NCBI GenBank assembly: GCA_945881915.1
Contig: CAMCVW010000035.1
Location: 1-34,297, forward strand
From: Thermoflexus hugenholtzii JAD2
GTDB lineage: Bacteria > Chloroflexota > Chloroflexia > Chloroflexales > Roseiflexaceae
Direction: 5' to 3'
Length of the DNA: 34,297 nt
A program made the position numbers and the translations under genes. The notes beneath the pieces were generated by a model. It was not told the origin of the DNA and searched no databases. It saw only the letters and a list, made by a program, of their open reading frames with translations. Positions 5,267-28,685 of the stretch are shown one piece after another. Within the stretch, counting starts at the first letter, position 1, and each line of letters starts with the position of its first letter.

Positions 5267-5278
5267 GTCAATATTGCA

Positions 5279-5554
5279 ATGAAGAGGAAGAGTAACTTCT
5301 CAACACGACCCCCCAGAGAGCCGACGGTTGGTGCAAAGTCGGTGGTGTCGCGAGGTGTGAATGGGCCTTGGAGCAGCGGCACGAAGGGCATGCGCCTGTG
5401 TAGTACCCGCCGGAGTCTGCCACCGTTATCACGGCAGGAGATGTACCCGACACGGGCAGCATCGACAAGAGCGTCAGCAATGACGAATGCGGGGTGGCAC
5501 CGCGGATGATTCATCCGTCCCCTTCCTTTCACACAAGGGAGTGGCGGTTTTTTT
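5279..5554 (+). promoter_or_regulatory. T-box riboswitch, tryptophan-specific
   Basis: The leader senses uncharged tRNA-Trp and controls termination before trpS. The 5' end has the typical GAAGAGGA/AGTAAC bases. Distal Stem I shows AGAGAGCC (from 5315) and GGTGCAAAG (about 5330). The likely specifier codon is TGG at 5362-5364, in the context GAA-TGG-GCC. The T-box proper, GGGGTGGCACCGCGG, is at 5491-5505. Its TGGC (5495-5498) would pair with an NCCA end whose discriminator is G, as in bacterial tRNA-Trp. Antiterminator helices are visible: GGGG 5491-5494 with CCCC 5519-5522, and CGGATG 5503-5508 with CATCCG 5512-5517. The competing terminator pairs 5515-5527 with 5536-5547 and ends in seven T. 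The two folds exclude each other. Confidence 0.93.
5515..5554 (+). terminator. Regulated terminator of the T-box leader
   Basis: An imperfect hairpin (CCGTCCCCTT against AAGGGAGTGGCGG) is followed by TTTTTTT. Its 5' arm shares bases 5515-5522 with the antiterminator, so binding of uncharged tRNA would prevent it from forming. Confidence 0.8.
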
Positions 5555-10932: not shown

Positions 10933-13296
10933 ATGGTGACAGATATATTCAACGCGATGAGCATAGGGAGCGCACCCGAAAGTGCAGCCCAGGCCAACGA
11001 ATGGCTCGATGGACACAATCGTTCATTTGGGATGTACATTGGTGGGGCATGGGTGCACAACGAGGCAGCGGGACGCTTCGACAGCATCAACCCGAGCACG
11101 GGGAAGGTACTTGCGTCGTTGACGCAGGCCTCGATAGCCGATGTGGACACTGCCGTAGCAGCAGCGCGAGCTGCATTCCCACGTTGGTCTGCCACGCCGG
11201 GGCACATTCGGGCGCGGTACTTGTACGCTATTGCACGCCAGATCCAGAAGCACGCTCGTTTATTCGCGGTGCTCGAGACGCTGGACAACGGCAAACCCAT
11301 CCGCGAAAGCCGCGACATCGACATCCCGCTGGTGATTCGCCATTTCTATCACCATGCTGGCTGGGCACAGATTGCCGACACGGAGTTTGCGGGGTATGCG
11401 CCGGTCGGGGTGTGTGCGCAGATTATCCCGTGGAACTTCCCTTTGCTCATGCTGGCCTGGAAGATCGCCCCAGCCCTAGCCGCCGGCAATACCGTGGTGC
11501 TCAAACCGGCCGAATGGACGTCACTGACGGCGTTGTTGTTCGCCGAAATCTGCCACGACATCGGCTTGCCAGCAGGGGTGGTTAACATCATCACCGGCGA
11601 CGGCTCTGTCGGCTCGGTCTTGGCGCATCATCCCGATGTGAACAAAATCGCCTTTACGGGGTCGACGGCCGTGGGTCGGCGTCTGCGCGAGGGTTCTGCT
11701 GGCAGCGGCAAGGCGTTGTCGCTCGAATTGGGCGGCAAATCACCGTTTATTGTGTTTGGTGATGCCGATTTGGATGCAGCGGTCGAAGGCGTCGTCGACG
11801 CGGTCTGGTTTAATCAGGGCCAGGTGTGTTGTGCGGGGACGCGGTTGCTGTTGGATGAGCGGATCGCCCACGACTTCACCATGCGCTTGACACGCCGCCT
11901 CCACACCTTGCGGGTGGGTGATCCGATGGACAAGACGATCGACATGGGGGCGATTATTTCGGAGCGACAGCTCGAACGAATTCGGCATTATGTCGAACTG
12001 GGCGTCGCCGAAGGTGCGGTCTGTCATCAGCCGTCACTGAATGTGAGCGAACAGGGTTTTTATTATCCACCGACCCTGCTGACCAATGTGCATCCGGCGG
12101 CGACGGTGGCGCAAGAAGAGATTTTTGGCCCCGTCATAGTGAGTATGACGTTCCGGACCCCGGCCGAAGCAGTCAGCTTGGCTAACAACACCCGCTATGG
12201 CCTAGCCGGCAGTGTCTGGTCACAGAACATCGACGTCGCCCTGGATGTGGCCAAGCAGATCAAAGCGGGCGTCATCTGGGTCAACTGCACCAACCAATTC
12301 GACGCGGCGGCGGGCTTTGGTGGCTACCGCGAGAGTGGCTACGGCCGCGAAGGTGGACGCGAGGGCATGTACGAATACCTCAAGGCAGTAGCGCAACCGA
12401 TTATCATGCCCACGCCGACCTTTGCGTTCCAGAGCGCAGACGCACACAGCGGCCCCGAGATTGACCGCACCACCAAGCTGTACATCGCCGGCAAACAGGC
12501 CCGTCCTGACAGTGGCTACAGCCGCTTGATGCGCACGCCGGATGGCGACGTCATCGGCGAAGCCGGCGACGGCAACCGCAAAGACATCCGCAACGCGGTC
12601 GAAGGTGCACGTGCTGCAGCAGGGAGTTGGGCCGGGACGGCTGCGCACGGCAAAGCCCAGATTTTGTTTTACATCGCCGAAAATCTGAGCATGCGAGCGG
12701 CCGAATTCGCCCAGCGTATCGCCACCGAACAAGGCATCGCTATCGATGCCGCCGCCGGGCAAGTAGAATCTGCCTTGCAGCTCTGGTTCAGTGCCGCTGC
12801 CTGGTGCGACAAATACGACGGCGCGGTGCATCACACCCCCAACCGGACAGTGGTCATGGCCATCCCCGAGCCGATGGGGGTGCTGGGGATTGTCGCACCG
12901 GAACGTGACGCATTTGTCGGCGCAACGGCATTATTGGCGCCGGCCATTGCGATGGGGAATACCGTGGTGTTGGTGACGAGTGAGCAGATGCCCTTGTCGG
13001 TGTTGGAGTTGTTGACGGTGCTCGACACGAGCGACGTTCCTCCCGGCGTGGTCAACCTCATCAGTGGTAATCGCGCTGCACTGACCAAGACACTGGCTGA
13101 ACACAGCGATGTCGACGGCATCTGGGCAGTGGCCGACGCGGCCACGCGCAGCATGATCGAGCGCAGTAGCATCCATAATCTCAAACGCGTCTGGGCGCTT
13201 GCTGACGAAAACGATGCCTGGCGTGGGTTGCCGGCGACGGAGTTCTTACGGCAGGCCACCCAGTGGAAGAATATCTGGCTCCCGTACGGGGCGTGA
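10933..13296 (+). CDS. Double-domain aldehyde dehydrogenase (ALDH16-type)
   Basis: A 787-residue protein with two tandem ALDH domains. Domain 1 (about 20-500) is complete: IIPWNFPLLML, FTGSTAVGRRL, the general-base Glu in LELGGKSP, and the nucleophile C299 in NQGQVCCAGTR. Domain 2 (about 510-787) has an NAD-domain-like portion (MAIPEPMGVLGIVAPE, AIAMGNTVVLV) but no GQxC nucleophile and ends early. This matches the ALDH16 architecture, in which bacterial members keep the catalytic Cys in the first domain and a degenerate second domain. With DeoC it could oxidise acetaldehyde to acetate, though its substrate is not shown. GGAGG lies four bases before the ATG; a GTG one codon later is an alternative start. 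Confidence 0.92.
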   Translation: MVTDIFNAMSIGSAPESAAQANEWLDGHNRSFGMYIGGAWVHNEAAGRFDSINPSTGKVLASLTQASIADVDTAVAAARAAFPRWSATPGHIRARYLYAIARQIQKHARLFAVLETLDNGKPIRESRDIDIPLVIRHFYHHAGWAQIADTEFAGYAPVGVCAQIIPWNFPLLMLAWKIAPALAAGNTVVLKPAEWTSLTALLFAEICHDIGLPAGVVNIITGDGSVGSVLAHHPDVNKIAFTGSTAVGRRLREGSAGSGKALSLELGGKSPFIVFGDADLDAAVEGVVDAVWFNQGQVCCAGTRLLLDERIAHDFTMRLTRRLHTLRVGDPMDKTIDMGAIISERQLERIRHYVELGVAEGAVCHQPSLNVSEQGFYYPPTLLTNVHPAATVAQEEIFGPVIVSMTFRTPAEAVSLANNTRYGLAGSVWSQNIDVALDVAKQIKAGVIWVNCTNQFDAAAGFGGYRESGYGREGGREGMYEYLKAVAQPIIMPTPTFAFQSADAHSGPEIDRTTKLYIAGKQARPDSGYSRLMRTPDGDVIGEAGDGNRKDIRNAVEGARAAAGSWAGTAAHGKAQILFYIAENLSMRAAEFAQRIATEQGIAIDAAAGQVESALQLWFSAAAWCDKYDGAVHHTPNRTVVMAIPEPMGVLGIVAPERDAFVGATALLAPAIAMGNTVVLVTSEQMPLSVLELLTVLDTSDVPPGVVNLISGNRAALTKTLAEHSDVDGIWAVADAATRSMIERSSIHNLKRVWALADENDAWRGLPATEFLRQATQWKNIWLPYGA

Positions 13297-13302
13297 TTGG
13301 GC

Positions 13303-13327
13303 CGTCCCGAGCATCACACCGGTGTGC
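13303..13327. repeat. Imperfect partial copy of the downstream palindrome
   Basis: CCGTCCCGAGCATCACAC matches the left arm of the 40-bp palindrome at 13331 with one change, then runs into CACACCGGTGTG, itself a 12-bp perfect palindrome. It starts seven bases after the aldehyde dehydrogenase stop. Confidence 0.7.
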
Positions 13328-13330
13328 ATT

Positions 13331-13370
13331 CCGTCCCGAGCGTCACACAGCTGTGTGACGCTCGGGACGG
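13331..13370. repeat. Perfect 40-bp palindrome
   Basis: The left half CCGTCCCGAGCGTCACACAG is followed directly by its exact reverse complement, without a spacer. In RNA it would form a very stable hairpin, and it may terminate or stabilise the aldehyde dehydrogenase mRNA, but no T-run follows. It could equally be a repeat element of the REP type. Confidence 0.9.
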
Positions 13371-13380
13371 GGTTCGCTCG

Positions 13381-13398
13381 GGCTTATTGCAATAAGCC
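13381..13398. promoter_or_regulatory. 18-bp palindrome, possible operator
   Basis: GGCTTATTG is followed by its exact reverse complement CAATAAGCC. A TATACT at 13412-13417 lies downstream, so the centre of the palindrome (TTGCAA, 13387-13392) would sit at the -35 position with a 19-base spacer. This suggests a repressor site over the promoter of the SDR-glcD-glcE genes. The size and TTGCAA centre would suit a LacI/GntR-class regulator, but none is encoded nearby. Confidence 0.45.
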
Positions 13399-13445
13399 TT
13401 ACTCTATCCCGTATACTTATTCATATTCATACCAAAGGACCCCAC

Positions 13446-14270
13446 ATGCAACACATCGCCGTCACCGGCGGTTCCGGCAAAGCCGGCCGCGCCACCATCC
13501 GAGAACTGCTGTCCCACGGCTACACCGTGCGCAACATCGATATTAACGCCCCTGCGGAGCGATTGTCCCCCTTCCAAAAAACCGATTTGACCGAACTCGG
13601 CGAGACCATCGAGGCCATGCACGGCTGCGACGCCGTCATTCACTTGGCCGCCAATCCTGACCCAACCGGCCGCACCGAAGAAGTCATGTTCCGCCACAAC
13701 ACCGGCAGTACCTACAACGTCTTCCGCGCGGCCCAATTGCTGGGCATGCCACGTGTGGTCTGGGCCTCGTCCGAGACCGCCCTCGGCTTGCCGTTTGAAC
13801 GCCGGCCACCGCCGTCGGTCCCCGTCGACGAGACGTACAGCGCTCCCGAGAGTAGCTATGCGCTGTCGAAGCTCGTGTCCGAAGAAATGGCTCGCCAATT
13901 CGCCAGCTGGTCTGGTGCCACTTACGTCGGCATGCGCTTCACCAATATCATGGAACAGCACGACTACGCGCGCTTCGCCACATGGCAAGACGACCCGACC
14001 CAGCGCCAGTGGAATTTTTGGGCGTATGTCGATGCCCGCGACGTCGCCCAGGCCTGCCGCAAAAGCCTGGTCGCCCCGCTGACCGGCGCAGAAGTATTCG
14101 TCATCGCCGCCGCAGACACGTGCATGAACCGCACCAATGCGGAACTCATGGCGGCGTACTTCCCTGCCGTCACCATCGCCCCCGGCACGGGGAGCCACGA
14201 CAGCCTGTTGTCGATTGCCAAAGCGCGCCGCCTGCTCGGCTACGAGCCACAGCACAGCTGGCGTTCGTAA
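13446..14270 (+). CDS. NAD-dependent epimerase/dehydratase family protein, uronate dehydrogenase-like
   Basis: A 274-residue extended SDR protein. The nucleotide-binding motif is TGGSGKAG (residues 8-15), the catalytic YxxxK is in SSYALSK, and HLAANPDP follows strand 4. The short length and missing C-terminal substrate lobe resemble uronate dehydrogenases and related sugar-lactone-forming enzymes rather than nucleotide-sugar epimerases. AAAGGA precedes the ATG. It is followed 19 bases later by glcD, so it may produce or process a sugar acid related to 2-hydroxyacid oxidation. Substrate unknown. Confidence 0.75.
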   Translation: MQHIAVTGGSGKAGRATIRELLSHGYTVRNIDINAPAERLSPFQKTDLTELGETIEAMHGCDAVIHLAANPDPTGRTEEVMFRHNTGSTYNVFRAAQLLGMPRVVWASSETALGLPFERRPPPSVPVDETYSAPESSYALSKLVSEEMARQFASWSGATYVGMRFTNIMEQHDYARFATWQDDPTQRQWNFWAYVDARDVAQACRKSLVAPLTGAEVFVIAAADTCMNRTNAELMAAYFPAVTIAPGTGSHDSLLSIAKARRLLGYEPQHSWRS

Positions 14271-28424: not shown

Positions 28425-28483
28425 GGGATTTCATCTGCTACCCACGGGCGACGTGTCGGCGCAGCCGGAGTTTCGCTGTGAGA

Positions 28484-28512
28484 AGATTGCACGGCGCCTG
28501 TGGCGCCATGCA
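28484..28512 (+). repeat. 29-bp direct repeat, copy 1
   Basis: The unit is AGATTGCACGGCGCC followed by TGTGGCGCCATGCA. It contains TGCA(C)GGCGCC facing GGCGCC(A)TGCA with a three-base centre, a nearly perfect hairpin. An identical copy lies at 28636-28664 in the same orientation. Confidence 0.92.
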
Positions 28513-28528
28513 ATGAATCCCCCCTCCC

Positions 28529-28628
28529 CGTCATTCCATGCCGGGTAGCTACAACCGGCGTGGAATCTTCTCCCTCTCCCGTCATTCCATGCCGGGTGGC
28601 TACAGCCGTCGTGGAATCTTTTTCCTGT
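28529..28628. repeat. Two tandem hairpin units of 51-bp period (GTCATTCC...GGAAT type)
   Basis: Each unit begins CGTCATTCCATGCCGGGT and closes with the complementary CGTGGAATCTT, giving hairpins at 28533-28566 and 28584-28617. The copies differ at a few positions. The ends resemble GTCATTCC/GGAAT mobile repeats found in many bacteria, such as Neisseria dRS3. They lie between the two copies of the 29-bp direct repeat, in the gap between the convergent esterase and PhyH genes. Confidence 0.8.
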
Positions 28629-28635
28629 GTCAAAA

Positions 28636-28664
28636 AGATTGCACGGCGCCTGTGGCGCCATGCA
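28636..28664 (+). repeat. 29-bp direct repeat, copy 2
   Basis: Identical to the copy at 28484-28512, 152 bases downstream in the same orientation. The two copies bracket the tandem hairpins. Confidence 0.92.
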
Positions 28665-28685
28665 CTGACGGAGTGAGGAGGAGCC

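Follow-up and report, generated by a model that had tools for sequence, protein, structure and literature searches.

A perfect 40-bp palindrome at a gene end in a Roseiflexaceae genome as a candidate REP-like repeat

In the part of PMC3733652 that we consulted, REPs are described as small palindromes that lie mostly downstream of genes and in most cases carry an unpaired GTAG or CGTC tag. The same part of that source links GTAG REPs to RAYTs, which are thought to move them, reports that CGTC repeats were not found beside transposase genes, lists a GTAG-23 family in T. roseum, and names five phyla for CGTC repeats from which Chloroflexi are absent. REP copy number is usually greater than 100 per genome, according to the section consulted of PMC2817692. 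The literature that we searched yielded no report of palindromic repeats in Roseiflexaceae. We take both T. roseum and the Roseiflexaceae lineage studied here to belong to the phylum Chloroflexota, and REPs in Chloroflexota as such are thus not new.

The window, by which we mean the whole stretch of 34,297 nucleotides that was analysed, is contig C35 of genome G000 (3.09 Mb in 63 contigs). We place this genome in a Roseiflexaceae lineage because the records of two congeneric relatives that have the core name them as Roseiflexaceae MAGs; the name of one MAG hints at a lake, and a freshwater habitat is only a guess. The features around the palindrome, called A here, are as follows.

10933–13296, + strand: upstream gene, aldehyde dehydrogenase family (Pfam Aldedh)
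13302–13326, + strand: A', a half-copy of A in direct repeat (left arm and apex, without the matching right arm)
13331–13370, no strand assigned: palindrome A, a spacer-free perfect inverted repeat of 40 bp (20 + 20 bp arms) with locus-specific outer arms
13342–13359: conserved core of palindrome A, GTCACACAGCTGTGTGAC
13380–13399, no strand assigned: slightly decayed copy of palindrome B, GGGCTTATTGCAATAAGCCT, from a 48-copy family
13446–14270, + strand: downstream co-directional gene, NAD-dependent epimerase/dehydratase

Palindrome A lies 34 bases beyond the stop codon of the aldehyde dehydrogenase gene and 75 bases before the start of the epimerase gene. An earlier note on this DNA had described a 40-bp inverted repeat with no spacer and no mismatch, and we found exactly that at 13331–13370. 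The degenerate partial copy that it placed upstream is also present: 13302–13326 matches 13331–13355 at 88%, with a start-to-start offset of 29 bases and a gap of 4 bases, and A' occurs in diverged form at the orthologous place in G007. As RNA, the stem of A comprises 21 bp, being extended by a G-U pair. The predicted RNA fold of 13297–13400 is far below that of shuffled sequences (z –7.7), and the DNA fold of the 40-mer gives z –9.2 against shuffles, as befits the short hairpin-forming palindromes (~20–40 bp) that characterize REPs. No terminator-like site or T-run was found on either strand of 12900–13900, in agreement with the same note, and the GC-rich hairpin plus T-run of a canonical intrinsic terminator is thus missing there. 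Rfam searches of the window at the gathering threshold gave no match for A and only one match elsewhere, a T-box leader at 5270–5525 (110.8 bits). This T-box is located upstream of a gene for a class I W/Y-type aminoacyl-tRNA synthetase and a gene for anthranilate synthase component I, a context that suggests tryptophan control.

Palindromes of this kind are rare by chance, as had been proposed. Twenty stretches of G000 (397,073 bases; five chosen for known family B, with C5 also holding a listed B site) contained 22 spacer-free perfect palindromes with arms of at least 10 bp, five of them in contig C1 (160 kb), which was taken regardless of B. Three first-order Markov copies of the same bases gave four 9-bp arms and none longer.

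We favor the reading, at a probability of roughly 0.6, that A is a dispersed extragenic REP-like repeat that serves as a two-way transcript-end hairpin, has spread in the manner of RAYT-moved elements, and has been perfected largely by copying of one arm onto the other. The suggestion of a REP-like element in the earlier note holds insofar as A is dispersed, extragenic, present in several copies and downstream of genes in a genome with RAYT-type genes; it falls short in that A has no unpaired GTAG or CGTC tag and is low in copy number. As we discuss below, observations on copies, position, RAYT genes and arm covariation bear on this reading and on its alternatives.

First, the search of the genome and its relatives that the earlier note had proposed located the core GTCACACAGCTGTGTGAC at about four loci in the draft of G000 and family A in 5 of 11 genus genomes; with the core at several loci, a single-copy terminator is ruled out. 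Apart from the window, DNA and pattern searches of G000 placed copies in C24, C51 and C58, and a weaker one in C6. Across the genus, sites with at most two mismatches numbered 16, compared to 4 for a reversed control, and two of the five carrier genomes are MAGs that are 60% and 72% complete. At this threshold G000 has 5 sites, and the drafts seen have at most 5, a low copy number for a REP. Among 84,980 species genomes, the exact 18-mer core occurred in eight stretches in all. Four of these belong to two Roseiflexaceae MAGs of this genus; the remaining four come from Nocardia (two stretches, two species) and from a single Bacteroides (two stretches), and are few enough to be chance. A phage origin was also considered and set aside on a search limited to viral contigs, in which the exact core had 0 matches. 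Within the collections searched, nearly all occurrences of family A fall in a single sub-group of this Roseiflexaceae genus. Given its few copies, diverse arms and the half-copies beside palindromes, A may be an old, declining family.

Two further families share A's build as perfect palindromes. Family B, with a TTGCAA centre, has 48 copies in G000 (0 control matches) and occurs in 7 of 11 genus genomes, in one of them by a single weak site; family E (CCACGGCATGCCGTGG) has 12 copies in G000 (1 control match) and occurs in 6 of 11 genus genomes. Other hairpins were seen as well. The RAYT gene of G005:C53 is flanked on either side by the short palindrome GAGGCATGCCTC, which is also present at the pnp-side junction in G005 and G010, relatives without A, B or E. 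A long hairpin with the core GTCGGGGCGAAA...TTTCGCCCCGAC stands at the 3' end of two RAYT genes (G006:C531, 1461–1502; G007:C88, 105–150) and may be the terminator of these genes or another repeat family. The palindrome beside the C27-type RAYT genes (ACCGGTGTTGCC...) was tried as a RAYT-linked family and set aside; no genome has more than one copy, a T-rich run comes after it, and we read it as the ordinary terminator of the upstream gene. Within the window, four clustered hairpin repeats occupy 28480–28670 between convergent GDSL/CE2 esterase and PhyH genes, two having the sequence CGTCATTCCATGCCGGGTrGCTACArCCGkCGTGGAATCT and two being of another type and facing the other way. Judged by eye, these repeats look like true CGTC-tagged REPs, with the tag outside the stem and a stem that starts AT; their pattern had no further match in 40 other stretches.

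Second, wherever the neighbors of an A copy could be read, the copy comes after a stop codon, and frequently it stands between genes that converge. In G000, A alone is found at three convergent and two co-directional junctions, and convergent A junctions include pnp/2OG oxygenase, enolase/folD and CoA-transferase/multicopper oxidase. The gene before the G001:C21 copy, guessed from its C-terminus to be GroEL, actually encodes a PhyH protein. A survey of position in G000 covered 40 rows, namely 6 of A (one of which, C1:6301, was a false match and was dropped), 30 of 48 of B and 4 of 12 of E; for 9 of the 40 rows, one side of the stretch lacked a called gene. None of the 40 lies inside a called gene, and one overlaps a gene end by 15 bases. 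Counted once per junction, the copies occupy 9 convergent, 13 co-directional and 1 divergent junctions, compared to a background of 34, 125 and 41, which corresponds to an excess of convergent (p 0.0098) and a lack of divergent junctions (p 0.035). The test took in 39 of the 65 copies of A, B and E known from G000, and 30 of the 39 could be classified. Gene calls came from an in-house codon-usage script, which overlooked two RAYT genes (C24 and C60); a convergent call for the C60 copy of E, due to the overlooked RAYT gene, was corrected before junctions were counted. A, B and E together are therefore extragenic with the 3'-end and convergent bias of REPs.

Orthologous junctions differ in the palindromes that they carry. 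Both genes of the pnp/2OG-oxygenase junction were seen in 8 of 11 genomes, and A was present in 5 of these 8 (G000, G001, G004, G006 and G007), with B added in G001 and G007. The same junction has GAGGCATGCCTC palindromes and a stretch of N in G010, and ordinary-looking terminator hairpins in G009 and G003; in G005, GAGGCATGCCTC palindromes come after the oxygenase gene on a contig that stops short of pnp, in G008 a contig end interrupts the junction, and G002 gave no match. The CoA-transferase/multicopper-oxidase junction carries A in G001, and a RAYT gene plus E in G000 and G006. The junction between an SDR gene and the C24-type RAYT gene carries A with tandem repeats in G000 and B in G007. 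In sum, what an orthologous gene junction holds may be A, B, E, a RAYT gene or an ordinary terminator. No clean empty site or insertion boundary with a target duplication was seen at the junctions compared. For the window locus, only G007 among the close epimerase homologue loci shows the same upstream neighbor; G010, G005, G002 and G003 do not in the stretches viewed.

Third, RAYT genes are present and some have such palindromes beside them. Protein and NCBIfam searches found four in G000 (44.6–60.1 bits), and a Pfam Y1_Tnp search of this genome for RAYTs gave no match. The protein encoded by G000:C24:40617–41150 (178 aa) scores 60.1 bits (E 2.2e-16) with NCBIfam REP_Tyr_transpos, for which the curated cut-off is 80, and 18.8 bits with Pfam Y1_Tnp (cut-off 23); all six RAYT proteins tested (41.3–60.1 bits) score under the NCBIfam cut-off of 80. 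The Y...NP motif occurs in 16 of 16 aligned proteins and an HUH motif (HVH, HIH or HFH) in 14 of 16, with HVQ in those of C24 and C80. These two HVQ proteins (G000:C24:40617–41150 and G007:C80:723–1256) are 97% identical and have Y...NP intact. Because HVQ replaces the HUH motif, activity of the C24 RAYT appears doubtful.

Upstream of the C24 RAYT start, B lies at about 40 bp and A at about 165 bp, and this is the only locus with A beside a RAYT gene; in G007, the ortholog of this RAYT gene has B twice and lacks A. E is found upstream of the C60 RAYT gene and of its G006 counterpart, and on both sides of the RAYT gene of G008:C116. The six carrier genomes contain 17 RAYT matches. A, B or E stands no more than 300 bp away from 5 of these, which represent three distinct loci, and is missing at that distance from the other 12, one of which (G007:C98) reaches a contig edge. 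Palindromes of like build thus stand beside two of the four RAYT genes of G000. For A, B or E at most 300 bp upstream, the comparison is 2 of 4 RAYT genes with 0 of 213 genes of C1 and C5 (Fisher p 2.6e-4), where the C1 and C5 stretches amount to 280 kb and hold only three such palindromes.

Finally, the arms of A change together. We aligned 15 copies without gaps around the centre, omitting the 18-base sites G000:C6 and G007:C6 and adding G007:C29. In each arm, the innermost nine bases (GTCACACAG) are almost invariant, and the outer arms differ in sequence between loci and retain complementarity, with pairing in 97.8% of 270 cells. The covariation score was 0.517. Shuffles averaged 0.126, with none of 500 reaching 0.517, and slid partners gave 0.085 at most. 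Double-sided changes affected 10 of 18 pairs (7.5 in shuffles; 6 of 500 as high), and further pair types numbered 20 (14.3 in shuffles; 1 of 500 as high); the shuffle control ignores the kinship of A copies, and these values are counts rather than probabilities. The 49 double-sided cells comprise 42 purine/pyrimidine flips, some of which are symmetric one-base insertions in both arms (CGTCCAGAG versus CGTCCATGAG) that the ungapped alignment displays as substitutions, and 7 transition-type changes; 3 cells are one-sided and 6 unpaired. Among the pnp-junction orthologs, pairs 2, 10 and 11 differ on both sides between genomes, as judged by eye. Within the inner 17 pairs, the apical pair 2 is unpaired most often (4 of 16 copies), followed by pair 8 (2 copies) and pair 9 (1 copy), a pattern that fits a hairpin loop better than a duplex operator. 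The many flips and few one-sided cells fit joint arm copying better than stepwise G-U intermediates, and the alignment favors joint copying of the arms, as might occur in template switching, over slow compensation.

Some further sequence features adjoin the palindromes. Half-units in direct orientation stand next to intact palindromes at 13302–13326 of the window, in G001:C336, in G006:C622 (218–295) and in G000:C60 (near 2700–2770), in both the A and E families; they are possibly footprints of template switching or of incomplete transposition. At G000:C24 (1540–1675) and G006:C622 (345–420), which are unrelated loci, short tandem repeats built from GGGACG / GGACGTTTC run on directly from A's outer right arm.

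The palindrome had been called hard to maintain, a claim that needs a qualifier, as template switching is described in the part consulted of PMC8794818 as creating, fixing and maintaining paired stems. This activity leads to the alternative that fares best. If template switching, as quasi-palindrome correction, perfected any hairpin, then the perfect arms might reflect pure mutation bias with no selection for function. The described ability to create and maintain stems speaks for this possibility, as do the 42 of 49 double-sided changes that are flips unable to pass through G-U, the paucity of one-sided cells, and the direct half-copies that adjoin palindromes in the window, G001:C336 and G006:C622. 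However, mutation bias leaves unexplained the conserved inner core, the position at gene ends, and the exchange of hairpins at a given junction. It probably accounts for the perfection of the arms but not for the presence of the palindrome, and as a complete explanation we consider it possible and rather doubtful.

A second alternative is that A is only a bidirectional terminator lacking a T-run, which was copied a few times, is neither mobile nor a REP, and has nothing to do with RAYTs. I-shaped or U-tract-less intrinsic terminators have a strong gene-end hairpin without a T-run, as A does. The location of A after stop codons and at convergent junctions, its low copy number, and the ordinary terminator-like hairpins that take its place at the pnp junction of G009 and G003 are all in keeping with this proposal. 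The lack of a T-run weakens an intrinsic-termination reading for A. Moreover, termination has no need of near-identical inner cores at unrelated loci, B and E have the same build and are multi-copy families with RAYT-adjacent copies, and A, B, E and RAYT genes interchange at orthologous junctions. To our knowledge, I-shaped or U-tract-less terminators have not been described with a core conserved across loci or beside transposase genes. We regard termination as the whole explanation as unlikely. The earlier note's view that a simple terminator is not the obvious explanation stands in that the element is multi-copy, and is to be tempered in that A likely functions in termination despite having no T-run.

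A third alternative, that A is an operator bound as a duplex by a dimeric protein, with TCACACAGCTGTGTGA as its core, would suit the nearly invariant, dyad-symmetric inner 18 bp and is nevertheless highly improbable, as A copies lie downstream of genes and not at promoters and the apical pair tolerates mismatch at the would-be hairpin loop; the protein-binding site suggested in the earlier note is likewise disfavored by outer arms that vary in sequence yet keep their complementarity.

The preferred reading of A as a REP-like repeat can be cast as a mechanism. An RNA hairpin would form at the end of the upstream transcript, here that of the aldehyde dehydrogenase gene, and by virtue of its symmetry could serve either strand, as a T-run-less barrier to transcription or as a protector of 3' ends. 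Copies may spread as single-stranded hairpins handled by RAYT-type HUH nucleases, and A was probably mobilized by a RAYT that is now lost or acts in trans. Template switching during replication would copy one arm onto the other and, together with selection for the hairpin, could produce perfect arms. We also propose, more tentatively, that RAYT-linked perfect palindromes are interchangeable gene-end modules, such that palindromes of the A, B and E types and, in relatives that lack these, of the GAGGCATGCCTC type enter shared 3' junctions and supplant the hairpin already there in its termination or 3'-end role, and template switching continually re-perfects the arms, leaving a locus-private stem around a shared core read by the mobilizing enzyme. 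Orthologous junctions provide a natural series in which hairpins of different families replace each other, and a fixed core with locus-private, jointly changing arms is a testable case of hairpin selection versus template-switch copying.

How does A compare with described systems? Like GTAG REP/RAYT REPtrons (PMC3733652, part consulted), the palindromes studied here are short, extragenic and predominantly downstream of genes at convergent or co-directional junctions; some family copies stand beside RAYT genes, and there are several families per genome. Unlike GTAG REPs, A has a nearly perfect stem, is low-copy, and is linked to a RAYT at one locus. None of the 15 aligned A copies has an unpaired GTAG or GTGG at either end; in other genera, a GTAG start was seen in some palindromes that adjoin RAYT genes. 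Like CGTC REPs as described in the same part of PMC3733652, A is extragenic and biased to gene ends, and several copies start CGTC at the outer end. Unlike in those REPs, which have an unpaired CGTC, an 8–9 bp stem beginning AT and a CCA tail, this outer CGTC is base-paired in the stem and is missing from several copies (for example G000:C58, G001:C336 and G001:C295), the stem is about 18–20 bp, and A has neither an AT-AT stem start nor a CCA tail. The TIRs of TIRYTs and the atypical structures of TnpA-Y1 subclass 2.6 (PMC3733652 and PMC6006769, parts consulted) are similar in that the repeats have no tag, are in some cases self-complementary, adjoin RAYT-like genes and recur elsewhere in the genome. 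TIRs differ in being described as flanking RAYT genes, whereas B here is only upstream and E is on both sides at one locus. Both large described REP groups bear an unpaired tag at one end (PMC3733652, part consulted); if our reading is true, the occurrence next to RAYTs of palindromes that are untagged and paired throughout would suggest that such a tag can be dispensed with. Palindrome A is neither a GTAG nor a CGTC REP and departs from both in tag and copy number, and yet it works like a REP.
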